A stretch of DNA of 21,454 bases from positions 1 to 21,454 of IMG/VR virus record IMGVR_UViG_3300032087_006456; one strand, given 5' to 3'. Origin of the DNA: a virus. A program made the translations under genes and the position numbers. Below, piece by piece: positions 1 to 15,671 of this stretch. The notes under the pieces are model-generated. The model did not search any database and was not told the DNA's origin. It saw only the letters and a list, made by a program, of their open reading frames with translations. Within the stretch, counting starts at the first letter, position 1; every line of letters starts with the position of its first letter.

Positions 1-3000
1 TTTTTGAAAAAGGTGATGTCAAAGTCTCAATGGAAGACTTTCTCCTTCATGCTGTCAGTGATGAAAACATGAGAGAGTTCTTTTTTGATGAAATGAAATT
101 AGAACCTGATGCTAGATCAGCAAGGGAAACTAGAGAGTTAATCTTTGAGGAGCAGCGTAAGGCACTTGTAGAAGATGCCATCAATAAATCTCAAGAGGAC
201 AACCTTAAAGATCAGATTGTTGATATAGTTGCAGACATTGCAATCAAGGGAGGGATGTCCGAACAGGAGGCCGTAACAGATGCAGAACTCTATGCTGCCT
301 TTTTTGTTCAAAAGGCAAGAGAGACAGGAAGAGACCCCATTGAAATTCTTAGAGAGTATAATCTCAAAATTCAAAGGAGACCAATAGCTGGAAGAAATCA
401 AGAGTCATTTACTAGAGACTTTGAAGTTGCTCAAAGAGAGATACCTCTTCCCGATAGAATCTCGATTATTTCCACAAGGTCTGACCAACAAATTAGGTCT
501 AGTGATTCAATTGAAACTATCACTGAAAGAATTCAGGCCATACTTAATCAAACTCCTAATATTGAGAATAGACACACAGGAATGACCATAAACTTATCCA
601 AGAAGAAAATTTCCAACTTCTTGCGCAAAAGTAAAGCCCTAAAGCAAGAGGGAATCAGGGACCAGCTAAACACCCTGGCAAACCTTGCACAGATCCTCCC
701 AGAAGCTGTCTATTTAGCTAACCATAAAATTAAGCAAGGGGAGAAGACAAAAGATATCTTTACATTTGTGTCACCTGTAAACCTAGATGGAGTCAACAAG
801 CTTGTCAGAATTGAAGTTTCCAAGGATAAAGATGGAAAAGCTCAATATGAAAACCATGAGATTGTAGACACTGACCATCTTGGTAAAAAGAGACTCCTAG
901 AAACGAATGATTTCCTCACTGCTGTTGAAGGGGCCAAAGGAAAAACATTTTTCCAGGGTGGAAAACCTCAAAGAGTAGTTAAACTTTCACCTCTTGGATT
1001 TTATTCTCACTTAGAAAATGAAGTTCTTAAAATGGAGTTCAAAACTATCCCAGGAGAACAGTTAAAATCTAGAATCCAAAAGATCGCTGGCCTTAAATCA
1101 GAAGAGCTTGAAATGAGTGGGTTGATGGAGCATATCGACTTAGTCGCCTCTAAAGACACCACCAAAGAAGCTGATATTAAGGGTAGCCCCAAAGGGAAGG
1201 TTTCTAAGGAGGAGATTCAGCTTTTTCTTGAAAATAATGGCCCTCAAATTGAGGAAATTGTTAGAAGCTCTGAAATAAAAGATGATGGCACAGGGAGCTT
1301 AACTGTTGACGATGTATCTTGGGGTGATGTTGAACAGGTAAAATATGATGACATAGAAGACGAAGCTATTCTAGATGGAGAATATGACCATTATGTAAAT
1401 GGAATGATTAGTGGTGAATACCAGGATGATACATTTGATAAGTTCAAAACAGAGAACCCGGATGCAACAGAGGATGAATTATTAAAGGTTGCCGAAAGGA
1501 TTTACGAACAGGAAATTAAGCCAGGTATAATTAAAGACATTGATAAAGGTGATCACTTCCTTTCCCGAACTTCTGTAAAGTTTACGACCCCTACTCTAGA
1601 TCTTGAAGGGAGTATAGAATACATAGATGAATTTGGAAGTGCCAATTTTAATTATTATGATCCAATAAGACGAAGGTGGGTGGATCATGACCTAGGAGAA
1701 TTTGGGTCTATCGAAGTTGCTATGGATGCTGCGGTAGAGAGACTTGTAGATGATGGACACGTTAAATATCCTGAGGATGTTGAATCAGAGCAGGTAGCTG
1801 CCGCTGGTGGCGCACCATCAACAAGGTTTGACAATTTGTTTAAACCCAAAGAAGGCACTATATTTGAACATAAATACAGTGCAACTCTACCGGGAGAAAG
1901 AACTGGTTATAAAGAATACCAACTAACCTTCCCTGTTCTTGAAAAAGAATTTTATTATACTCCACATTTTCCAGATAAAAACTTCTTTGCCCACTCACGA
2001 GTTTCATTCAGACCCCAAGAGAATGGTGAAGAAATATTCTATATTGAAGAGATACAGTCTGATCTCCATCAACAGGCCAGAAAAGAAGGAGGTTTCTATT
2101 CCCCCACTAAGGAAAGCGAACTGGCCGCACTTGATATTGAGTATAAAAATTTAAGGAAAGAGAGAGGAGAATACCTGGACTCTTTTAGGCCATCCCAGGA
2201 AAGGGCCTTAGATAAAATTGATAAGCAAATTATTCCCATCCAAGTTAGAAGACAAAAACTTTTAGAGGAAGTGCACTCTCCTGTTAAAAATGCACTTGAT
2301 GCTGTTTATGAAGAAAGACAGGATTTTGTTAAGAGAGTTGGTGAAGATACTGAATTTGAAGATCTTTCTATAGAGGACCAAAACAAGTTTAATGATATTC
2401 AGAAACGACATAACCTTTTCCTAGAAAGGGCCAAAGGTTTAGCAGATCAGTTTAAGCCTATGGACAATCAAATTGATGACCTCCAAAGGAAAAGAGACAA
2501 AATTAGGAACATAGAAAATTATTTTTTTTATCATGCCACAAGAGAAGAGTCTCAAAAGATGGAAAAGATTGATAAAAGAATAGATGAGATAAATGAAATA
2601 CTTGGTTCTCGCTTCTCTGCTGATGCGAGATTTAAAGACACTGAGGCATGGGCAGGGTTGATGTTGAAACGACTTGTTACTATGGCAGTGGAATCTGGAT
2701 TTAAACACATAGCGATTACCCCTGGCCATATTCAATATAAAAGGTGGAGCGAAGACGGCCTAATTCCCTTTTATGATGAAAAAATCCCTTCTATTATGAA
2801 AAAACTCTTAAGGAAGGTTGATGGAAAGAAGGCCCAACTCCAAACTTATGACATCGACACAGGAGAAGTCTTAAGGCAAAAAGACACTTCGCCTTTAAGT
2901 AATTGGAATAAAGAATCATTCAACGAGGCGATGGATGCTCTTATTCAAGATTTTACCAATCAAATAGAGCACAATAAGGCCTTTGAAAAAAAATTAGATG

Positions 3001-6000
3001 AACATAGAGCGAAGGGCAGGGATTTTCTAAGTTCACTTTTAGATGAACGAGATGACGTTTATATACCAAAGTATGAACAGGTGGCATATACACAAAGTCC
3101 TGAAGGGGCATTAAGAAGGTTTATAAGACTTAAGGAAGATTTAAATTCAAGAGTTTTCCCGGATTTTGAAAACCTTAGTGAAGCAGCAGAGATGGGAAAA
3201 TTGCTTTTAACTGAGGTTGATTATTTCAACCAAATGATAACTGGGGAGCCATTACCTATAATTAAAAAACCTGTTATCGTCAAATCTCCTGGGTTTGAAA
3301 TCTCAGATAAGATGGTTGAGGCGGTAGAGCAAGGATTCACTTATTATCAAGGAAGAGGTGAAAGAGGTTCCATCACCTTCCGACAAGGTATGGTTGACAT
3401 CAACCTATTTAAAGATGCAAACCTTTCAACCTTCCTTCATGAGACAGGTCACTTCTTCCTTGAAGTCTTCGCTGATTTAGCAAATTCAGACACTGCCTCA
3501 CAGAGTTTAAAAGACGATTGGGCAGCAACTATGGAAGCTCTTGGGGTTAAAGACAGATCTGAAATTGGAACTGAACAACACGAATCTTGGGCAGAGCAAT
3601 TTGAGAGAAAGCTTGAAACAGGTAAAGCACCATCAGAAAGATTGAAAGGTCCATTTGCTAGGTTCAGATCTTGGTTAGTTCAAATCTACAAAAATATTAA
3701 GGACACAAGAACGCAACTTGATCCAAGGATCTCTGAGATTATGGACAGGATGCTTGCTTCTGATGAAGAGATTAGACAGGTTTATGCTGAACAAGGTCTC
3801 AATGCCCAGTCAATGGTTGAGGCCCTAAAGAAGATTGACCCCAAAGAAGCTCAAAGACTTGCCCAGGCAATTGCCGATGCTAAGGATGAATCAGAAACAG
3901 AGCTTGCCCATAAACTCTATAAGGAAGTTAAGAAAAGAGAAAATGCTGTTGTAAAAGAGAGATCTGCTTCTGAAGAAAAGAAAATTAGAAAGGAGATAAG
4001 TGAGGAGAAAGGCTATCAGGCCATGGCAGCTCTGACCACTGGGACTCTTCCTGATGGAACTAAACTTGATAAGACTTTTAAAATTTCTAGAAAAGATCTG
4101 GTTCAGAAATTGGGTCAAGATGCGGTTAAAGATCTTTCTGTTATTAGGCCATACGTTTATGCTAATCAAGGTGGGATAGATGCAACCACTGCTGCTGGCC
4201 TCCTTGGTTATGATGGGCCTAAAGATATGGTTGATTCTCTTCTTAAGCTAGAAGGTGCTGATGAAAAGGTTGCAAGGCTCCTTGATGAAAGAATGAAAGA
4301 GATTCTTGGTGATTCTTTACACACAGGACAGATTGAAGAACTTGCTCAGATTGCTGTTCATAACTACAAAAGGGATGAGCTTCTTGCCTTGCAGATGGAA
4401 CTCCTTGCTAAGTATGATTTTAAGAACTTCAAAAAACTTGATAAGTCTCTTAGAAAGAAATCAGCAACAAAAGATCTAAGAGAACAAGCAGATCAAATCA
4501 TTTCTAGAACCACCCCAAGGAATCTAACCCCTGGGAAGTATCTTAGAGCTGAGGCCAGAAACGCTAGAAAGTTTACTGATGCCTTTTATAAGGGAGACAT
4601 TGAAGCTGCCATTGCCTACAAAGAAGCTGAGTTAATCAATGCCCAACTTTATAAGAAGGCCATCAAAGCTCAAGAAGAAGTCCAGAAGATAAGAAGGTAT
4701 GCTAAGAAGTTTGACAATAAACAGTTCCTGGCAAAGTTTGGAAAAGTTGATCAGGATCTCTTGGGCCAAATTAAAAACATCCTAGAATATTATGATTTCC
4801 AAAATACCACCTATAAAGAAATTGATTACAACAAATCTCTTAAACAGTGGATCATTGAATCAGCACAGAAAGATGGGGTCTTCCCTTTATTGAATGAGCA
4901 GCTTCTCAATAGAGTGGACCCAACCAATTATAGAGAAGTGCCGATGGAAGAACTCAGAGGGGTTTATGATGCTCTTAAAGCTCTTGAGTTCCAAATGAGA
5001 ACAGATCTTCAAACTCTAGTGGGAGAAGAATATAAACTCTTTGCTGATGAGAAAGAAGCTGTATTACAACAAATGAAAGCAGCTCATGGGAAAGGGCCTA
5101 ACCTAGAATTGCCAGCCCCTAAAGAGACTCCTGCTGATGACAGAAGAAATGTCATGGAATGGTATAAGTCTTTTGTTGCTGCCCATGAAAAAGCATCTTC
5201 CATTTTTAAAAATCTTGGTGGAGGCAACCCACTCAACCAGGTTTTCAACACTTTCTATGGAAGGATTTCTAAAGCTGCTGATGATAGGGACATCCTCATG
5301 GGACGCATTATCCAGAGGATTCAAAAAGCAGTGGAGCTTTTTTCAGAACAAGAAAGAGAAGCTTGGGCGAATAAAGAATATACTGTTCTAAATGAAGACT
5401 ATAAATTATCCCACTCTGAGATGATGATGGTCCTTATGAATCTTGGGAATATCTACAACAGACAAGCATTGATGGAAGGATGGGGTTGGACCAATGACAC
5501 AATTGACAACTTCCTTTCTCAAGTAGAAAAGAGGGATATGGATTTTGCCCAGATGATCTGGGACATGTATGACTTTTATCTATGGCCAATGGTGAAGCAG
5601 CTTGAAATTGAGACCACTGGTCTTGCTCCTGAGAAAGTAGAGGCTGACGCCATCAAAACTAGGTTTGGAACTTACCGAGGTGGATACTTTCCTGTTATGT
5701 ATTCCAAAAAATTAAACTGGAGAAAGTTTAAGGAGACCCAAGTTGAAAGCCTTGATGATCTGCAAGAGCTTTACGTTTCTAGGAAAATGACTAAACAAGA
5801 TCACGTCAAAGAAAGAACCATCAACAGAGATGAGCAAGGGAACTATCTTAAAGTCTCTCTTTCAATTTCTGGGTTTACCGAATCCCTTCATAATGTTGCC
5901 CATGACCTCACTCATAGAAAGGCAGTCATTGATGCCCACAGATTCCTAAGGGATAAAGATATTAGATCTGCCATTTTGGGAATTGCTGGAAGAGAAACCT

Positions 6001-7205
6001 ACTTAGAGCTTGATAAGTGGATTGCTTCTGTTGCTACGGAAAAGGTTGGCTATTCTGATTCTGCTTGGGAGGCCATGCTTGGTAACCTCAGGTCAGGAGC
6101 AACAGCAGTCAACATGGGATTTAACATTGGTACCACCATAACACAACCATTGGGTGTTACTGTCTCTGCTGCTGAAATTGGAGAATTTTGGGTTGCAGCA
6201 GGGGTCAAAGAATTTTACAAAAAGGGATTTTTAAAGACCAGTAAATTCATTGAAGAAAACTCAGTCTTTATGGCCAAAAGAAAAGAGAACTATTCCAGAG
6301 ACGTGAGGGACTATCACAGAAGATCTAACATTCTAAACTTTACCCCTCCATCAGCAATGGGGAAGATGGAGAAAGTCTGGAACGAGGTCACAAGAAAAAA
6401 AATCCCAGGAACCAAATGGAACTTGGAAGAATTAAGATATGCCCAATTTGACATCATTGGGATGGGTGACATTGCTGTGGCTTATCCCACTTGGATGGGT
6501 GCCTACAAAAAGGCAATGGCAGGTGAAGTCACAGGTGTTGCTGGGAATGGCCATGAACTTGCTGTAAAGTATGCTGATCAAGTTGTGAAAGACACCCAAG
6601 GATCAGGAAGGCTTGCAGATCTTGCTGGAATCCAGAGAGGAAGTGAGTGGCTTAAATTATTCACAATGCACTATTCTTACCACTCGGTTTTATTCAACCA
6701 GTTTAGAGATAAGATGAAAGCCAGTGCTATGGGGGCCATTTCAAATAAGGAACTTTATAAGGCTTTATTTTATATGGTCTTCTTATCCCCAATGCTAGAA
6801 GCTCTTGTAAGAGGGAGACTTCCAGAGGATGATGATCCAAAAGATATTGCACGATGGATGGCCCTCAACACACTGTCAAACTTAGGTGGCACTGTGATTG
6901 GGTTAAGAAATATTAGTGGAGGATTAGAGTATGGCTTTAGCCCTTCCCCTGCTTTTGGGATTGCTGAGTCTGCAACAAGCACTGCCAGCACTGTTTTAAA
7001 TCTGGTAACATTTAATCAGGATGAGATTAAGAGGAAGGACATAAAAAATATGACCCTAATGACAGGGTATGTTTTTAAGCTTCCAGCAAGACAAACATGG
7101 AAGACTCTTGAATTTTTCTATGATTGGCTTGATGGAAAAGCTGAGGCCAATGATCCTCTCACTTTTATGTATAAAGCATCAATTAAAGGCACTGACCGAA
7201 AATAG
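1..7205 (+). CDS. Giant phage polyvalent/internal virion protein with zincin motif (5' partial)
   Basis: A very large protein, probably carried in the virion and ejected with the DNA. The frame is open from base 3, and the ATG at 30 has no Shine-Dalgarno at normal spacing, so the true start probably lies left of the window. Numbered from that ATG: residues 1-500 are charged and helical. At about 640-910 lies a domain with EEIQSD (about 675-680) and, after a long coiled-coil insertion, the block AWAGLMLKRL...IAITPGHIQYKRW; I know this pair from phage large polyvalent proteins. HETGH at 1137-1141 follows RGSITFR...LSTFLHETGHFF, a zinc-metallopeptidase (HExxH) motif. The middle is rich in Lys/Glu helices. 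Near the C terminus SPMLEALVRGRLPEDDD resembles the PLxRG-type region of polyvalent proteins. Stop TAG lies 8 bases before the fibre gene. The peptidase motif is seen; virion location and ejection are inferred. An anti-defence or cell-takeover role is possible but not shown. Confidence 0.8.
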   Translation, partial: FEKGDVKVSMEDFLLHAVSDENMREFFFDEMKLEPDARSARETRELIFEEQRKALVEDAINKSQEDNLKDQIVDIVADIAIKGGMSEQEAVTDAELYAAFFVQKARETGRDPIEILREYNLKIQRRPIAGRNQESFTRDFEVAQREIPLPDRISIISTRSDQQIRSSDSIETITERIQAILNQTPNIENRHTGMTINLSKKKISNFLRKSKALKQEGIRDQLNTLANLAQILPEAVYLANHKIKQGEKTKDIFTFVSPVNLDGVNKLVRIEVSKDKDGKAQYENHEIVDTDHLGKKRLLETNDFLTAVEGAKGKTFFQGGKPQRVVKLSPLGFYSHLENEVLKMEFKTIPGEQLKSRIQKIAGLKSEELEMSGLMEHIDLVASKDTTKEADIKGSPKGKVSKEEIQLFLENNGPQIEEIVRSSEIKDDGTGSLTVDDVSWGDVEQVKYDDIEDEAILDGEYDHYVNGMISGEYQDDTFDKFKTENPDATEDELLKVAERIYEQEIKPGIIKDIDKGDHFLSRTSVKFTTPTLDLEGSIEYIDEFGSANFNYYDPIRRRWVDHDLGEFGSIEVAMDAAVERLVDDGHVKYPEDVESEQVAAAGGAPSTRFDNLFKPKEGTIFEHKYSATLPGERTGYKEYQLTFPVLEKEFYYTPHFPDKNFFAHSRVSFRPQENGEEIFYIEEIQSDLHQQARKEGGFYSPTKESELAALDIEYKNLRKERGEYLDSFRPSQERALDKIDKQIIPIQVRRQKLLEEVHSPVKNALDAVYEERQDFVKRVGEDTEFEDLSIEDQNKFNDIQKRHNLFLERAKGLADQFKPMDNQIDDLQRKRDKIRNIENYFFYHATREESQKMEKIDKRIDEINEILGSRFSADARFKDTEAWAGLMLKRLVTMAVESGFKHIAITPGHIQYKRWSEDGLIPFYDEKIPSIMKKLLRKVDGKKAQLQTYDIDTGEVLRQKDTSPLSNWNKESFNEAMDALIQDFTNQIEHNKAFEKKLDEHRAKGRDFLSSLLDERDDVYIPKYEQVAYTQSPEGALRRFIRLKEDLNSRVFPDFENLSEAAEMGKLLLTEVDYFNQMITGEPLPIIKKPVIVKSPGFEISDKMVEAVEQGFTYYQGRGERGSITFRQGMVDINLFKDANLSTFLHETGHFFLEVFADLANSDTASQSLKDDWAATMEALGVKDRSEIGTEQHESWAEQFERKLETGKAPSERLKGPFARFRSWLVQIYKNIKDTRTQLDPRISEIMDRMLASDEEIRQVYAEQGLNAQSMVEALKKIDPKEAQRLAQAIADAKDESETELAHKLYKEVKKRENAVVKERSASEEKKIRKEISEEKGYQAMAALTTGTLPDGTKLDKTFKISRKDLVQKLGQDAVKDLSVIRPYVYANQGGIDATTAAGLLGYDGPKDMVDSLLKLEGADEKVARLLDERMKEILGDSLHTGQIEELAQIAVHNYKRDELLALQMELLAKYDFKNFKKLDKSLRKKSATKDLREQADQIISRTTPRNLTPGKYLRAEARNARKFTDAFYKGDIEAAIAYKEAELINAQLYKKAIKAQEEVQKIRRYAKKFDNKQFLAKFGKVDQDLLGQIKNILEYYDFQNTTYKEIDYNKSLKQWIIESAQKDGVFPLLNEQLLNRVDPTNYREVPMEELRGVYDALKALEFQMRTDLQTLVGEEYKLFADEKEAVLQQMKAAHGKGPNLELPAPKETPADDRRNVMEWYKSFVAAHEKASSIFKNLGGGNPLNQVFNTFYGRISKAADDRDILMGRIIQRIQKAVELFSEQEREAWANKEYTVLNEDYKLSHSEMMMVLMNLGNIYNRQALMEGWGWTNDTIDNFLSQVEKRDMDFAQMIWDMYDFYLWPMVKQLEIETTGLAPEKVEADAIKTRFGTYRGGYFPVMYSKKLNWRKFKETQVESLDDLQELYVSRKMTKQDHVKERTINRDEQGNYLKVSLSISGFTESLHNVAHDLTHRKAVIDAHRFLRDKDIRSAILGIAGRETYLELDKWIASVATEKVGYSDSAWEAMLGNLRSGATAVNMGFNIGTTITQPLGVTVSAAEIGEFWVAAGVKEFYKKGFLKTSKFIEENSVFMAKRKENYSRDVRDYHRRSNILNFTPPSAMGKMEKVWNEVTRKKIPGTKWNLEELRYAQFDIIGMGDIAVAYPTWMGAYKKAMAGEVTGVAGNGHELAVKYADQVVKDTQGSGRLADLAGIQRGSEWLKLFTMHYSYHSVLFNQFRDKMKASAMGAISNKELYKALFYMVFLSPMLEALVRGRLPEDDDPKDIARWMALNTLSNLGGTVIGLRNISGGLEYGFSPSPAFGIAESATSTASTVLNLVTFNQDEIKRKDIKNMTLMTGYVFKLPARQTWKTLEFFYDWLDGKAEANDPLTFMYKASIKGTDRK

Positions 7206-7213
7206 GAGTTATT

Positions 7214-9757
7214 ATGACTATTGCTTCCACCACTAACAGAATTTCCTATACCGGGAACGGATCGGTTAGTGTTTACGCTTACACTTTTAAAATATTCACT
7301 GATGATGATTTACTTGTCACAGTTAGAAACACATCAGGGGTTGAGACAACTCTCACCAAAACGACAGACTACACTGTTGATGGTGTTGGTGAAACCTCTG
7401 GAGGGAACGTGACTTTGGTGAACGCTTCCCAAGCATGGCTTACCGGGGGGAACCTTACCACAAATTATGTTCTGGTCATTAGGAGAGTTATTGATCTTCT
7501 TCAGTCAACAGACATCAGAAACCAAGGGCAGTTCTATCCAGAAGCTCATGAGAACGCTTTTGATAAGTTTGTGATGATGAGTCAGCAACAACAGGACGAG
7601 CTTGATCGAACTATGAAAAACCCAGAGACTGTTCCAAGCTCTGACTTTGATCCAACTCTTCCCTCTGACATTGAAACGGCTAACTCAACTATCATTGTTA
7701 ATTCAAGTGGAAATGCTTTTGAGATGGGGCCAACAGCAAGTGAAATTTCAAATGCCCAAACTTATGCAAACAACGCTAGTTCCTCTGCTAATAAAGCTGA
7801 GAATTGGGCAACAAAAACTGATGGGATTGTTGAATCAACTGATTATTCAAGTAAGGCCTGGTCCATAGGGGGAACCGATGTTACAGACACAGCAAGTAGA
7901 GGCGCAAGTAAAGAGTGGGCCACAAAAACCTCATCAACCGTGGACACAACTGAATACTCTTCCAAAGAATATGCTCAAGGAAGTCAAGCTGCTACTGGAG
8001 GGTCTGCCAAAAACTGGGCGCAACAAACTGGAGCCGATGTTACAGGAGCTGCTGCTGGATCTATGTCAGCGAAAGAATGGTCGGTGGGAACCCTCGGCCG
8101 AGGAGTATCAGGTGAAGGGAGTAGCAAGGATTGGGCCACACACACATCGGGAACAGTAGACGATACCGAATACAGTAGTAAGGCTTGGTCTGTAGGAGGT
8201 ACAGGCGTCACAGACACAGCAAGTAGAGGCGCAAGTAAAGAATGGGCAACAAAGACTTCATCAACCGTGGACACAAGTGAGTTTAGTTCCAAGGAATATG
8301 CTCAAGGAAGTCAGGCAGGCACTGGAGGGAGTTCCAAAAACTGGGCAACGCAAACTGGAGCCGATGTTACAGGTGCTTCTGTCGGGGATATGTCAGCGAA
8401 AGAGTGGGCCGTTGGAACTATGGGTAGGGGTGTAGCTAACGAAGGTTCGAGTAAGGACTGGGCTACTTATACTTCTGGAACCGTCGATGGGAGTGAGTAC
8501 AGCAGTAAGTATCATGCTCAACAGGCATCATCTTCTGCTGCCTCTGCTGCTTTAAGTGCCGCCTTGAGGCTTTTTAAACAGACTGATTTTTTAACTAGTG
8601 CAGGTTCACCTTACACCTTAACAAATTCTGATTTAGGGATTTTAAAAAGTATAGATGCTAGTTCTGGAAATGTAGTTGTTAATCTTCCCCAGATTTCCAC
8701 TTTAGGTGAAATGGCGGCCATTGCTTTTTTAAGAACAGATGCTGGATTAAATACAGTAACCATTAATCGAGCAGGGACAGACACCATTGGCAGTGGTGCC
8801 GCTTCCTCTATAACTCTAGACAGTCGAGATCATGCAGCAATATTGGCTCCCGAGGATTCAACCACACCCGATCAATGGTCACATTTAGATATTAATAGTC
8901 CCACTCAGGCAGAAAGAACAACTACAACGGTTACGGCTTCATCTTATAATTTATCGGACAGTGACGATATTATAATTTTAGATGCCAGTTCAAACGCTAT
9001 CACTATTAATCTCCATGCAGTGGCTACTGCGAGAGTCGCGCCTTATACTTTTATAGTTAAAGATAACTCTAACACTATTACTCTTGATCCAAATAGTTCT
9101 GAAACAATTAATGGTGAAACTACTTGGACTCTATCAAACAAATATGAAGCAATTGACGTGATACCGGACGGAAGCGCATGGTATATTAAAGCCAAAGGTC
9201 AAAATGCGCCTGACATGACTTGCACCTTTGCAAGGTGTGTAGCAAGTGGGAGTAATGGTGGCAGTCTATCTAGTTCAAGCTACCAAGATTCACAATTTTC
9301 TCATTACTATGGCGATGATATGTTTACGAGTGGTCCGATTACGGCCGGAACTCTAAGCGCACACACTAATGATTCTCACACGGCATTGGGGACTTGGAAT
9401 CTTATCCCTGGTAAAACATCTGGAAATGCCTTTACAACCTTCGATTTTGCGCCTGGGATTTATAGGCTAAAATTCTCTAAAGGCACATCGAGAAAAGGTT
9501 GTAAGGTTAGGATTTATGACAATGATGGTGCCACAGCAGTCCATTATGGTAACTCTGTCCTGGTTGTTTCTGATACTGATGGTAGTGCATGGTCGACCGT
9601 AGAAGTAACTTTAATACTAACCACGGCAAATGAATATAGTTTTGAGTACTATATCGGGGGCGGTGGAACTGGTAACGGTAACGCTAGGGGTATCCCGCTA
9701 GGTGATGGCGTTGCCGAAACTTATGCAACCGTTGATGTTCAGTATTGGAAGCTATAA
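7214..9757 (+). CDS. Tail fibre protein, T7 gp17-like N terminus, repeat-containing shaft
   Basis: An 847-aa receptor-binding fibre. Residues 1 to about 140 match the T7 tail-fibre N-terminal (virion-attachment) type: ITNRISYTGNG-like start, the VVIRRV-like LVIRRVIDLLQSTDIRNQG block, then FYPEAHENAFDKFVMMSQQQQDELDR. Residues 198-415 hold two tandem 109-aa repeats plus a partial third, each with sub-repeats around WATKT, SSKEYA and SAKEW, likely a trimeric shaft. Residues about 470-670 hold two beta-rich modules with ITINRAGTDTI- and ITLDPNSSETI-type lines. The last 180 residues (CTFARCVAS... to VDVQYWKL) resemble a jelly-roll-like tip domain and probably bind the receptor (inference). AGGAG overlaps the upstream stop and sits 7 bases before the ATG, so it is co-transcribed with the giant protein gene. 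Confidence 0.88.
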   Translation: MTIASTTNRISYTGNGSVSVYAYTFKIFTDDDLLVTVRNTSGVETTLTKTTDYTVDGVGETSGGNVTLVNASQAWLTGGNLTTNYVLVIRRVIDLLQSTDIRNQGQFYPEAHENAFDKFVMMSQQQQDELDRTMKNPETVPSSDFDPTLPSDIETANSTIIVNSSGNAFEMGPTASEISNAQTYANNASSSANKAENWATKTDGIVESTDYSSKAWSIGGTDVTDTASRGASKEWATKTSSTVDTTEYSSKEYAQGSQAATGGSAKNWAQQTGADVTGAAAGSMSAKEWSVGTLGRGVSGEGSSKDWATHTSGTVDDTEYSSKAWSVGGTGVTDTASRGASKEWATKTSSTVDTSEFSSKEYAQGSQAGTGGSSKNWATQTGADVTGASVGDMSAKEWAVGTMGRGVANEGSSKDWATYTSGTVDGSEYSSKYHAQQASSSAASAALSAALRLFKQTDFLTSAGSPYTLTNSDLGILKSIDASSGNVVVNLPQISTLGEMAAIAFLRTDAGLNTVTINRAGTDTIGSGAASSITLDSRDHAAILAPEDSTTPDQWSHLDINSPTQAERTTTTVTASSYNLSDSDDIIILDASSNAITINLHAVATARVAPYTFIVKDNSNTITLDPNSSETINGETTWTLSNKYEAIDVIPDGSAWYIKAKGQNAPDMTCTFARCVASGSNGGSLSSSSYQDSQFSHYYGDDMFTSGPITAGTLSAHTNDSHTALGTWNLIPGKTSGNAFTTFDFAPGIYRLKFSKGTSRKGCKVRIYDNDGATAVHYGNSVLVVSDTDGSAWSTVEVTLILTTANEYSFEYYIGGGGTGNGNARGIPLGDGVAETYATVDVQYWKL
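7805..8511 (+). repeat. Tandem 327-bp in-frame repeats in the fibre shaft
   Basis: Unit 1 is 7805-8131, unit 2 is 8132-8458, and a partial third unit starts at 8459. Both full units are exactly 327 bases (109 codons) and start with TGG GC(A/C) AC(A). Units 1 and 2 share identical runs of about 30 bases, for example around 7886 and 8212, so duplication or gene conversion is fairly recent. Within each unit shorter Trp-centred sub-repeats of roughly 25-30 residues are visible. The repeats are coding, with no spacer structure. Confidence 0.9.
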
Positions 9758-9822
9758 CTATCTAACGCATTTTATTTTTCAATAACTTTTTTGCCGGGTA
9801 AAATATTTTGAAGGTTAAAACG

Positions 9823-10056
9823 ATGAAAATTGAAGCGACCACAATTGAGAAAATATTTATCCCGGTATTAAGTGCCGTTATAATTAGTGGTGTTACCACA
9901 CTCATCCAATTACATACAAAGCTGGAAGTTTTAGAAAATAAAGTCAATACAAACACTGATCGAATAATCAGAATTTTTAATAAATTAGAAAAAATTAGTG
10001 ATGATCAAAAAGAGATCCTTAGGCTTCTATTTGATTGGGAACATAAAGCTAAATGA
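9823..10056 (+). CDS. Small membrane protein with coiled coil (holin or inner-membrane spanin candidate)
   Basis: A 77-aa protein. I chose ATG 9823 over the TTG at 9808 because AAGG lies 9 bases upstream of the ATG. Residues about 10-28 (IFIPVLSAVIISGVTTLI) form one membrane segment; residues 32-72 are a heptad-like charged helix (LEVLENKV...IIRIFNKLEKI). An N-terminal anchor followed by a coiled coil fits a short i-spanin-type protein or a class-III-like holin. Its stop overlaps the start of the NlpC/P60 hydrolase gene (ATGA), which supports a lysis role. The exact lysis function is inference; no family is recognised with certainty. Confidence 0.72.
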   Translation: MKIEATTIEKIFIPVLSAVIISGVTTLIQLHTKLEVLENKVNTNTDRIIRIFNKLEKISDDQKEILRLLFDWEHKAK

Positions 10057-13226: not shown

Positions 13227-13452
13227 AAGAGTTCTCACTGTTGAGCAGGTTGATAAACTTATTGAACTTTCAATCATTGCCCCCAAATCAAAGTTTGATG
13301 CCATTATAAAAGGGGTCCAGTTAGTCCTAGTGGGTGTTGCTTGTTGGGCAAAAAAAAGTATGATGGAAGAGGAACAGATTAGGTTAAAACAACAATATGA
13401 GAGAGAGATCGCAACTGATAACCAAATGGAAGTTGATGAAGGGATCATCTAA
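13195..13452 (+). CDS. Hypothetical small protein with short hydrophobic segment
   Basis: An 85-aa protein that starts inside the previous gene (AAGG upstream of the ATG). Residues 39-53 (KGVQLVLVGVACWAK) form a short hydrophobic stretch, possibly membrane-associated, followed by a charged coiled-coil-like tail (MMEEEQIRLKQQYEREI). Its last 15 bases overlap the 5' side of the tRNA-like element, whose first acceptor strand lies inside codons 82-84. Function unknown. Confidence 0.55.
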   Translation: MNYKYRDQHSKRVLTVEQVDKLIELSIIAPKSKFDAIIKGVQLVLVGVACWAKKSMMEEEQIRLKQQYEREIATDNQMEVDEGII

Positions 13453-13509
13453 GTAGTTTAAGACCCGGTTCACCCACCGGAAATGGGAGTGCGAGTCTCC
13501 CTCCCTTCG
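13438..13509 (+). tRNA. tRNA-like cloverleaf, atypical or degenerate
   Basis: A 72-base cloverleaf: acceptor GAAGGGA (13438-13444) pairs with TCCCTTC (13502-13508), 7 of 7; T stem GGGAG/CTCCC, 5 of 5, with loop TGCGAGT (consensus TTCGANT); anticodon stem CCGGT/ACCGG, 5 of 5; D stem TCT/AGA, 3 pairs. T8, A14, A21, G53, C61, T54, C56 and A58 positions fit tRNA. Deviations: the anticodon loop is 6 bases (TCACCC) instead of 7, base 26 is missing, T55 is G, and G18 is A. CCA is not encoded (GCCT follows). The amino-acid identity cannot be set; CAC (Val) is one reading. It may be a decayed phage tRNA or a tRNA mimic. Confidence 0.5.
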
Positions 13510-13526
13510 CCTCAATGGAATGAAAA

Positions 13527-14525
13527 ATGAAATTACTTTTTTGGTTTTTTTTAGTATTGTCTATCTATGGTTGCAAAGATGGTGGGAAGGTATCTCCCAA
13601 GATTCCCAGCTCCTCACCTGTCTCAAAACCTGTTGATCCTAGAGAAACCCCCGTGGAGGATAGGTCCGAAAATACTCCTTTCAAGTTGTCCATTAAAGAC
13701 GGTAAGATTCTCAGAGATGGCCATCCCTATCTTTTACGGGGGTTCAACATTGCAGACCCCTGGCACATCATTAAAAGAAACCATCGAAACGATCCAAAGG
13801 CCATAGACTTTCTCCAAGATCATATTTACTCAGGGATGGAGCTTGGTGGGAATGTTGTGAGGATTCCTTTGATTCCAAGGGACCCATTTAAAGAAGGTTT
13901 CCTTGATTGGACTGAGAGATACCTTAAGGAGATCTTAAGGCCCACAGTTGAGTTTATTGTCAAAGCTGGATGGTATGTGATTCTTGATAATCATTGGGTA
14001 AAGGACTTTGACAAAGTAGAAAGAACCGATCTTTTTCTTTGGGCAGAAATCATGATGGAAAATTTCGGCAATAACCCACAAGTTATTTTTGAAGTTTTTA
14101 ATGAGCCGATTAGACCAAACGATTGGGCAACCTGGGTAAGTTATATCCAGCCAATGATAAATCAAATGCAAAAAGTTGATAACCTTCTTATCGTTGGCGG
14201 CCCTTATTGGTCATCGAATATGAGCGGGGCAAATCAAATGCCTATTGCCGGAAAGAATATTACCTACGCTGGACATATTTACAGCAACCAAGACCCAATG
14301 AGATGGAAAGTAAACTATCCAGAAAATTGTATTTTCACCGAATGGGGATTTGAAGTTGGTGGAACTGAAGGTGGGAATTTAGAATGGGCCAAAAAGTTTT
14401 ATTATGAATTCCTTCACAAAAAAAGCTGGACCATGTGGTGCTTATCTTCCCAATGGGGTCCCCGTATGTTGAATGATTCTGGTGATCTTACGGATGCTGG
14501 CAAATTCTATCGGGATATCATATGA
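13527..14525 (+). CDS. Lipoprotein glycoside hydrolase, GH5 (cellulase-like)
   Basis: A 332-aa predicted secreted lipoprotein of glycoside hydrolase family 5, a retaining TIM-barrel enzyme cutting beta-glycans (cellulose, mannan or similar). Signal peptide MKLLFWFFLVLSIYGC gives lipid-anchored Cys16, then a Pro/Ser-rich linker to about residue 50. Barrel features: LRGFNIAD near 70, NVVRIPL (conserved Arg) near 115, YVILDNHW near 150, acid/base Glu193 in FEVFNEPI, AGHIYSNQ, and nucleophile Glu272 in IFTEWGFE. Both catalytic glutamates are present, so it is probably active. Substrate cannot be read. The Shine-Dalgarno is weak (GGA 8 bases upstream). It is the last + gene before the convergent zone, a typical cargo position. 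It could help the virus or host degrade polysaccharide, or modify the infected cell surface (inference). Confidence 0.88.
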   Translation: MKLLFWFFLVLSIYGCKDGGKVSPKIPSSSPVSKPVDPRETPVEDRSENTPFKLSIKDGKILRDGHPYLLRGFNIADPWHIIKRNHRNDPKAIDFLQDHIYSGMELGGNVVRIPLIPRDPFKEGFLDWTERYLKEILRPTVEFIVKAGWYVILDNHWVKDFDKVERTDLFLWAEIMMENFGNNPQVIFEVFNEPIRPNDWATWVSYIQPMINQMQKVDNLLIVGGPYWSSNMSGANQMPIAGKNITYAGHIYSNQDPMRWKVNYPENCIFTEWGFEVGGTEGGNLEWAKKFYYEFLHKKSWTMWCLSSQWGPRMLNDSGDLTDAGKFYRDII

Positions 14526-14715
14526 TGTAAGAGGCCGGGAAGTCTCAAGGAAATGCTAGAGACGAACCTAAACATGTTGGAAGACAATCCCGGCCCTTTG
14601 ACATTAACAAACTGGTTTTACGCAGTCACCATCCCACCTCGGTGAGAATCTTATTTTTAACAATTAAAGGTTTATACTCTAAATTATTTTTCATAGCAAC
14701 CAAACTCTTTAAGAG
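14526..14715. other. Convergent intergenic zone
   Basis: This is where the + strand late operon and the minus strand operon meet. It holds structured copy 1, then a weaker hairpin TCACC (14626-14630)/GGTGA (14641-14645) with a 10-base loop and TTATTTTT starting at 14651, which may act as a weak terminator for + transcripts. A 13-base palindrome, ACTCTTTAAGAGT (14704-14716), touches the stop of the minus-strand gene. No convincing gene is present. Confidence 0.55.
14533..14595 (+). ncRNA. Structured RNA-like element, copy 1
   Basis: It begins 7 bases after the GH5 stop. Outer stem P1 is GGCCGGGA (14533-14540) with TCCCGGCC (14588-14595), 8 of 8. Inside, P2 is GTCTC/GAGAC (14542-14546, 14559-14563) with a 12-base loop, followed by GAACCTAAACA and a possible small hairpin CC..AA/TT..GG (14567-14580). 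No T-run follows, so it is not a classical terminator. It shares its layout and the string GAGACGAACCTAA with copy 2 at 14892-14948. The class is unknown to me. Confidence 0.5.
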
Positions 14716-14862
14716 TCATAGCTCCCCCCCCAGCTCATCAATTTCATTTTTAATTGCTTGTAGTAGGATTTTATCAGCAGGTTCCAATTTCTCTTCTGGT
14801 TCTTTTTGCATTAGCTCCAAGAGATGTAGTAACCACTTAAGTCGTGCAGCACCTTCTTTCAC
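14716..14862 (-). CDS. Small helical protein, unknown function
   Basis: A 48-aa protein. I chose GTG at 14862 because AAAGGAG lies 6 bases upstream; a longer reading from GTG 14931 has no Shine-Dalgarno and would run through structured copy 2. The protein is one long amphipathic helix (AARLKWLLHLLELMQKEPEEKLEPADKILLQAIKNEIDELGGEL). Eight G residues in the coding strand (14724-14731) encode Gly-Gly near the end, a possible slippage site. It lies between the two related structured elements. No family recognised. Confidence 0.5.
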   Translation of the reverse strand: MKEGAARLKWLLHLLELMQKEPEEKLEPADKILLQAIKNEIDELGGEL

Positions 14863-14891
14863 AAAATACTCCTTTGTGCTAAGGTGAAAAA

Positions 14892-14948
14892 GGGGTGGCG
14901 TTTCACGGACCAAGAGACGAAACCTAATCACGGGAGAGTTGCCACCCC
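14892..14948 (+). ncRNA. Structured RNA-like element, copy 2
   Basis: P1 is GGGGTGGC (14892-14899) with GCCACCCC (14941-14948), 8 of 8. P2 is GTTTC (14900-14904) with GAGAC (14914-14918), one U-G wobble, loop of 9; alternatively GTTTC pairs with GAAAC (14919-14923). Then GAAACCTAATCA and GGGAGA. The string GAGACGAA(A)CCTAA is shared with copy 1 while the P1 sequence differs completely yet stays paired. Strand is called + because the P2 wobble is allowed only in the + RNA. On the minus strand P1 is followed by TTTTT, so this copy might also end minus-strand transcripts 7 bases after the upstream gene. Confidence 0.5.
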
Positions 14949-14955
14949 AGTTTAA

Positions 14956-15240
14956 TTAGGCAGTTTTAAGTCCTAGATGCTCTCCGATTCTAGCATTTAA
15001 AATACACAAGGCCTCAATTAACTTCTCTCTTTTTTCAATCAGCACTCGAAGATCTGGCTTTCTGGTTGAATCTTTTTTTTCCTTCTGTGCCTTAACTTTT
15101 GTTCCCTTCGCAGTAGCACCTTTCCATCTAGTAAGGGTTACTCTGCTGATGTTGAGGTCTTTTGAAACTTTTGTGATTGAATCAGTTTGAAGTTTTTTCA
15201 TAGCCTCTGCTTTCTCTTCTTTTGTGTAAGTCTTTTTCAT
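14956..15240 (-). CDS. Small helix-turn-helix protein (transposase-orfA-like HTH)
   Basis: A 94-aa protein. ATG 15240 is chosen because it overlaps the upstream stop as ATGA and has GGAGA 5 bases before it; an in-frame ATG 4 codons earlier overlaps this Shine-Dalgarno. Residues about 6-41 (KEEKAEAMKKLQTDSITKVSKDLNISRVTLTRWKG) form a helix-turn-helix like those at the start of IS3-type OrfA proteins and small phage regulators. A Lys-rich linker (KGTKVKAQKEKKDSTRK) and a C-terminal helix follow. It is probably a DNA-binding regulator of the phage rather than a transposase, as no transposase partner or inverted repeats are present. Last but one gene of the minus operon. Confidence 0.72.
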   Translation of the reverse strand: MKKTYTKEEKAEAMKKLQTDSITKVSKDLNISRVTLTRWKGATAKGTKVKAQKEKKDSTRKPDLRVLIEKREKLIEALCILNARIGEHLGLKTA

Positions 15241-15671
15241 GATTGTCTCCATTTAATTGACTGGGAACTCTTGATGTAATCAAGGCCATCAATTAGTTCT
15301 CCATTTTTTAAAAGCTCTGTTGCTTTCTTTTTATCTACACTCATCTGAGTCTTAACAACTAAGTAATCCTTTGGAACCCTTGTCATGTCTTTTATCTCCA
15401 CTCGGTAATTGGTTCTGCCAAATGTAGCTTTATAGTGGTTACCTTTCAGCTCTCCACCAGCAAGGTTCAAACAAAGGTCAATATATTTTTTATACTTTTC
15501 CACTTTCCGTTTAGCACGATCAAGTTCTTTCTTTGTTTTCTCATGCAGGTGTGTAGCATAGGCAACCTGACTTTCCAAATGATTTATATAAAAATGAGCA
15601 TTATCTATTTTTGTTCGATCTACTTTTCCATCTCTAATTTGAGTTAATAAACTTTCTGGTCTATCAATCAT
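15237..15671 (-). CDS. Siphovirus Gp157-family protein
   Basis: A 144-aa protein matching the Gp157 family pattern: an N-terminal long coiled coil (residues 35-70, LESQVAYATHLHEKTKKELDRAKRKVEKYKKYI), a middle strand pair (YKATFGRTNYRVEIKDMTRVPKDYLVVK) and a C-terminal VDKKKATELLKNGELIDGLDYI. The family is common in phage recombination modules; it was named from Streptococcus phages and has been linked to phage-resistance phenotypes, with no firm molecular role. Length is near the family norm. AAGGA lies 5 bases before the ATG. It sits in a tight operon with a Sak4-like ATPase and a DUF669 protein, which supports a role in DNA recombination or replication. Confidence 0.82.
   Translation of the reverse strand: MIDRPESLLTQIRDGKVDRTKIDNAHFYINHLESQVAYATHLHEKTKKELDRAKRKVEKYKKYIDLCLNLAGGELKGNHYKATFGRTNYRVEIKDMTRVPKDYLVVKTQMSVDKKKATELLKNGELIDGLDYIKSSQSIKWRQS

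Follow-up and report, generated by a model that had tools for sequence, protein, structure and literature searches.

The window analysed here is an IMG/VR record of 21,454 bases from an uncultured tailed phage, and raises the question of what function is served by two similar, foldable sequences placed on either side of a small gene. Genes up to position 14525 read rightward and encode a very large LPD3-domain protein, a tail protein, an NlpC/P60 protein, a virion structural protein and a GH5 protein. The block after 14525 reads leftward, with a 48-codon gene and genes for HTH and Gam/Gp157-like proteins, a helicase and an AAA ATPase, and a rightward prim-pol primase gene is found at the window end. 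The repeated element is sited at the convergent junction of the rightward (tail/GH5) and leftward (Gam/HTH) blocks, where the features are as follows.

13527–14525, plus strand: GH5 cellulase-family protein (Pfam PF00150, E 1.2e-18), last gene of the rightward block
14533–14595, no strand assigned: copy 1 of the element, 63 nt; P1 arms 14533–14540 and 14588–14595; fold z −4.3 (plus strand) and −3.5 (minus strand)
14716–14862, minus strand: 48-codon gene between copies 1 and 2, with AAAGGAG and a GTG start
14892–14948, no strand assigned: copy 2 of the element, 57 nt; P1 arms 14892–14899 and 14941–14948; fold z −2.6 (plus strand) and −3.65 (minus strand)
14956–15252, minus strand: small HTH protein, HTH_Tnp_1-like
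15237–15671, minus strand: Gp157/Mu Gam-like protein, which starts the neighbouring leftward genes

Other features of the window were also noted. The 2,391-residue protein encoded at 30–7205 contains an LPD3 (large polyvalent protein) domain and shows similarity to PHROG 9880, and the tail protein gene carries near-tandem 300-nt repeats (7800–8099 and 8127–8426, 77% identical) that represent an internal duplication. The region just before the GH5 gene (13445–13526) matched a viral tRNA-like element in Rfam weakly and below threshold; the match is probably due to chance, as the region folds no better than shuffled sequences. In the 48-codon gene, AAAGGAG lies at a good distance from the GTG start on the minus strand, and the plus-strand open reading frame at 14642–14887 is antisense to it. 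Relatives of the gene were looked for and none was found.

The initial annotation described two copies of one layout at these positions, and the coordinates, the 8-bp stems and the common interior were all borne out. The outer stem, P1, is a perfect 8-bp Watson-Crick helix in each of the two copies, and their interiors share the motifs GTYTCAMGGA, AGAGACG(A)AACCTAAWCA and GGRAGA. The copies lie in the same orientation, about 350 bp apart, and the bracketed 48-codon gene reads on the minus strand. Their reported distance of 7 bases from the nearest flanking stop codon also holds, with copy 1 beginning 7 nt past the GH5 stop and copy 2 ending 7 nt short of the stop codon of the minus-strand HTH gene.

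P1 had been described as differing throughout between the copies and yet pairing in both. It does pair in both, but only four of the eight base pairs differ, the arms GGCCGGGA and GGGGTGGC agreeing at 4/8 positions. The four differing pairs are all compensatory (C-G to G-C twice, G-C to U-A, and A-U to C-G). This count was read from the reverse-strand alignment; the plus-strand alignment displays three compensatory pairs, MAFFT having gapped copy 2 at the eighth pair. Among the three sequences available, including a third copy described below, compensatory changes were found at these four pairs of P1 and at none in the inner stems. P1 is thereby supported, and the copies fold beyond shuffled sequences in energy.

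The inner fold is less consistent. The 5-bp hairpin GTCTC/GAGAC proposed initially is favoured in copy 1 (pair probability 0.98 in single-sequence ensembles); it is one of two competing folds, with probabilities of 0.12 in copy 2 and 0.00 in the third copy, where GTCT is predicted to pair with a downstream AGAC in its place. RNAalifold returned the GTCTC/GAGAC stem and a 2-bp CC/GG stem for the trimmed alignment and chose a different inner pairing for the flanked alignment, and pair counts fail to separate the two inner models (100% versus 97% of cells paired). The plus-strand assignment made at the outset, which rested on a single wobble in the inner hairpin (P2) of copy 2, is not established. 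That wobble favours the plus strand; a wobble in copy 1, in the apical stem of the minus-strand fold, favours the minus strand, and the minus-strand consensus fold is the more stable (−23.55 versus −20.28 kcal/mol). Fold energies for copy 1, copy 2 and the third copy are −25.0, −24.5 and −27.7 kcal/mol on the minus strand, and −24.5, −20.3 and −26.0 kcal/mol on the plus strand.

A third copy was identified by a pattern scan of IMG/VR in a second phage (contig 3300025093_000189, 8270–8327). It occupies all of the space between GH5 (plus) and HTH (minus), which converge there as they do in the window, 4 nt past the GH5 stop and 5 nt short of the HTH stop; the Gp157/Mu Gam-like gene is next in order there too. 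This contig contains neither the 48-codon gene nor a second copy. The initial annotation had looked to a further homologue with a paired, covarying P1; the third copy does have a paired P1, but of the same sequence as that of copy 1, and all P1 covariation derives from copy 2. Three copies on two contigs form the evidence base, and protein baits (Gam, GH5, and the 82-residue and 124-residue proteins) gave matches only in this contig, which leaves one independent homologue.

DNA similarity between the two phages stops at the element (window 13716–14600). The GH5 proteins (window 13527–14525; second phage 7267–8265) are 79% identical although the two phages are otherwise divergent, whereas the HTH protein abutting the third copy is only 29% identical to that of the window. 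Since most other genes common to both phages diverge more than GH5, GH5 and the element look like one exchanged or conserved module. The GH5 protein has a lipoprotein-like N-terminus, and just three weak matches to it turned up in 50,697 phage records. Separately, a gene for an 82-residue protein (window 9780–10016; second phage 5446–5682) is 87% identical in DNA and 83% in protein, where the proteins of neighbouring genes are about 50% identical; on this comparison the patch is read as a module recently exchanged between the two phages.

Copy 1 and the third copy are identical at 55/57 aligned bases, compared with 35/71 at fourfold-degenerate positions in the neighbouring GH5 gene (Fisher p 9e-10). 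Judged from this contrast, the element is itself under purifying selection, conserved beyond neutral expectation. The length differences between these copies (two of 3 nt and one of 1 nt) fall in predicted loops or at a stem junction. When copies 1 and 2 are compared, 30/37 interior positions are alike versus 8/19 in the stem, the interior being the better conserved part.

The resemblance of copy 2 was compared with random windows. Its Smith-Waterman score against the third-copy interior is 34, while the best of 40 random windows scored 27. A score of 34 was reached by 0/1,500 random windows, even though 8-bp stems on both strands were admitted with whatever interior they enclosed; with the third copy as reference, the resemblance thus goes beyond chance expectation. 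The weaker test, with copy 1 as reference, gave 5/1,000 random windows equal to the score of copy 2. An 8-bp stem abutting a given core has p of about 0.0005. These tests count score and stem; proximity, orientation and stop-codon spacing would add to them.

The element is apparently undescribed so far. With Rfam 15 at lax thresholds on both strands, no family approached its gathering score at the copies (E up to 5–10), and together with a third copy under selection this sustains the initial view of an unrecognised structured element. Four motif patterns run over IMG/VR recovered the third copy as the only real member outside the window, the other matches being rejected because they have no P1. 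Two pattern scans of bacterial genomes yielded none and then eight matches without the P1/P2 architecture. Searches of INPHARED and PLSDB with blastn gave only partial matches (E 2–7) and nothing credible; one intergenic match in SPbeta was rejected for having no such stem. A covariance model run over 1,191 genomes of three phyla found no member, which is weak evidence given its strict filters and lack of a positive control. Weak model matches in the second phage were rejected as lying within coding sequence. The hammerhead core CUGANGA is absent from both strands of all three copies, in agreement with the earlier judgement by eye; hammerheads in permuted block orders (orders from PMC10085705) were rejected for the same reason. 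CCTAA as part of an 11-nt GAAA-tetraloop receptor was likewise rejected, as CCTAAG and TATGG are absent.

The best explanation, with about an even chance of being correct in our judgement, is a phage-encoded structured element that acts at operon ends, most likely as RNA. On the minus strand each copy lies downstream of a gene (HTH before the third copy, HTH before copy 2, and the 48-codon gene before copy 1). On the plus strand copy 1 and the third copy follow GH5, and copy 2 follows no credible gene. Because every copy is downstream of a gene only on the minus strand, an operon-end function on the minus strand or on both strands is preferred from position. Of the three roles first suggested (a small RNA, a 3′-end processing element or a DNA hairpin), the operon-end position favours 3′-end processing. 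The minus-strand tails of the copies are T-rich (TTTTTCAC, TCCTTTAT, TCTTACAT). Against an operon-end function, an intrinsic terminator scan of 14300–15400 found no canonical terminator; a run of five T occurs in copy 2 alone, on the minus strand, directly after P1 and just upstream of the ribosome site of the 48-codon gene; and a DNA hairpin would account just as well for the compensatory changes in P1.

In the proposed mechanism, the GC-rich P1 would close a folded interior of 41–47 nt of conserved sequence, and the element would mark the meeting point of the rightward (tail/GH5) and leftward (Gam/HTH) transcripts. The folded RNA would likely stop transcription there, be cut, or be shielded from decay, and its conserved interior would probably be read by a phage or host protein. 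The leftward message of the 48-codon gene would have copy 2 as its upstream boundary and copy 1 as its downstream boundary. The active form (RNA), the strand and the activity (termination or processing) are all inferred.

Four other explanations were considered. The element may be a DNA-level site for insertion of small genes or exchange of modules, resembling attC or a mosaic boundary. One copy in the second phage corresponds to copy-gene-copy in the same orientation in the window, the DNA shared by the two phages stops at the element (13716–14600) with the next gene only 29% identical, and compensatory changes in P1 would also suit a DNA hairpin. We consider this unlikely, as no integrase or transposase was found among the window proteins scanned, variable outer arms are the reverse of the attC layout, ordinary phage mosaicism accounts for the boundary, and no other cassette was found. 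Equally unlikely is a plain bidirectional terminator hairpin with no special role for its interior. Its location between convergent genes, GC-rich 8-bp stem and T-rich minus-strand tails would all be expected of such a hairpin, but the plus-strand tails have no T-run, the scan found no terminator, and a plain hairpin has no need of an interior that outconserves its stem between copies 1 and 2.

A new class of small self-cleaving ribozyme is improbable. The outer stem covaries and junction nucleotides are conserved; the size of 57–63 nt, the conserved, unpaired-looking core and the copies on either side of a phage gene agree with known phage ribozymes (PMC3088659; PMC4604425), and such a class would be new, with no Rfam ribozyme matching. 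Opposed to this, neither CUGANGA nor any known core was recognised, no cleavage site is suggested, the inner fold is inconsistent across copies, and ten similarly chosen structured motifs failed to cleave in vitro (PMC10085705). That copy 2 is a chance look-alike, and that only copy 1 and the third copy are homologous, as a conserved hairpin of ordinary type following GH5, is very unlikely: the 5/1,000 random windows equalling the copy 1–copy 2 score are outweighed by the 0/1,500 stem-bearing windows reaching 34, and by the orientation, spacing and stop-codon distance of copy 2.

The element is thus a real, selected and apparently undescribed structured element at phage operon ends, probably with an RNA role in forming or processing transcript 3′ ends. 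Hammerhead and pistol ribozymes are among the compact structured elements found where phage genes adjoin. The present element adds a candidate that is small and easy to test, distinct in sequence, with compensatory changes in its stem and copies on both sides of a single small gene. Cleavage activity, or use as a recombination site, would make it the first of a new class; a role as a terminator or processing signal whose interior is read by a protein would make it a new phage transcript-end element. The more far-reaching outcome, a new self-cleaving RNA class or a folded-strand site that inserts small genes into phage genomes, is quite unlikely and would so far be represented in two uncultured phages only.

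Among known systems, attC sites have conserved core sites at their outer arms and are used by an integron integrase. The present element resembles attC sites and phage mosaic boundaries in being an imperfect palindrome behind a gene where similarity ends, and in occurring as one copy versus copy-gene-copy. In attC terms it is reversed, since its P1 arms vary between copies and its interior is conserved, and no integron integrase was found among the proteins scanned. Intrinsic and bidirectional terminators share a strong GC stem between convergent genes; they differ in having a short loop followed by a T-run, whereas the element has a conserved interior of 41–47 nt and no consistent U tract, and even copy 2 on the minus strand, where TTTTT follows P1, has an interior of 41 nt. 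Pistol and other phage-associated ribozyme classes occur near phage genes (PMC4604425) and are likewise compact, intergenic in phages and built of conserved nucleotides among short stems, although the element has no covariance-model match to them and its predicted fold differs as far as known. Since the hammerhead core is absent from the element on either strand and Rfam gives no match, its likeness to hammerheads is a working analogy, not membership. Hammerheads in prophages flank single genes, and their suggested task is to divide long phage transcripts into messages the length of a gene (PMC3088659); like the present element, they are small and structured, occur several per locus at the borders of single phage genes, and vary in their outer stems.
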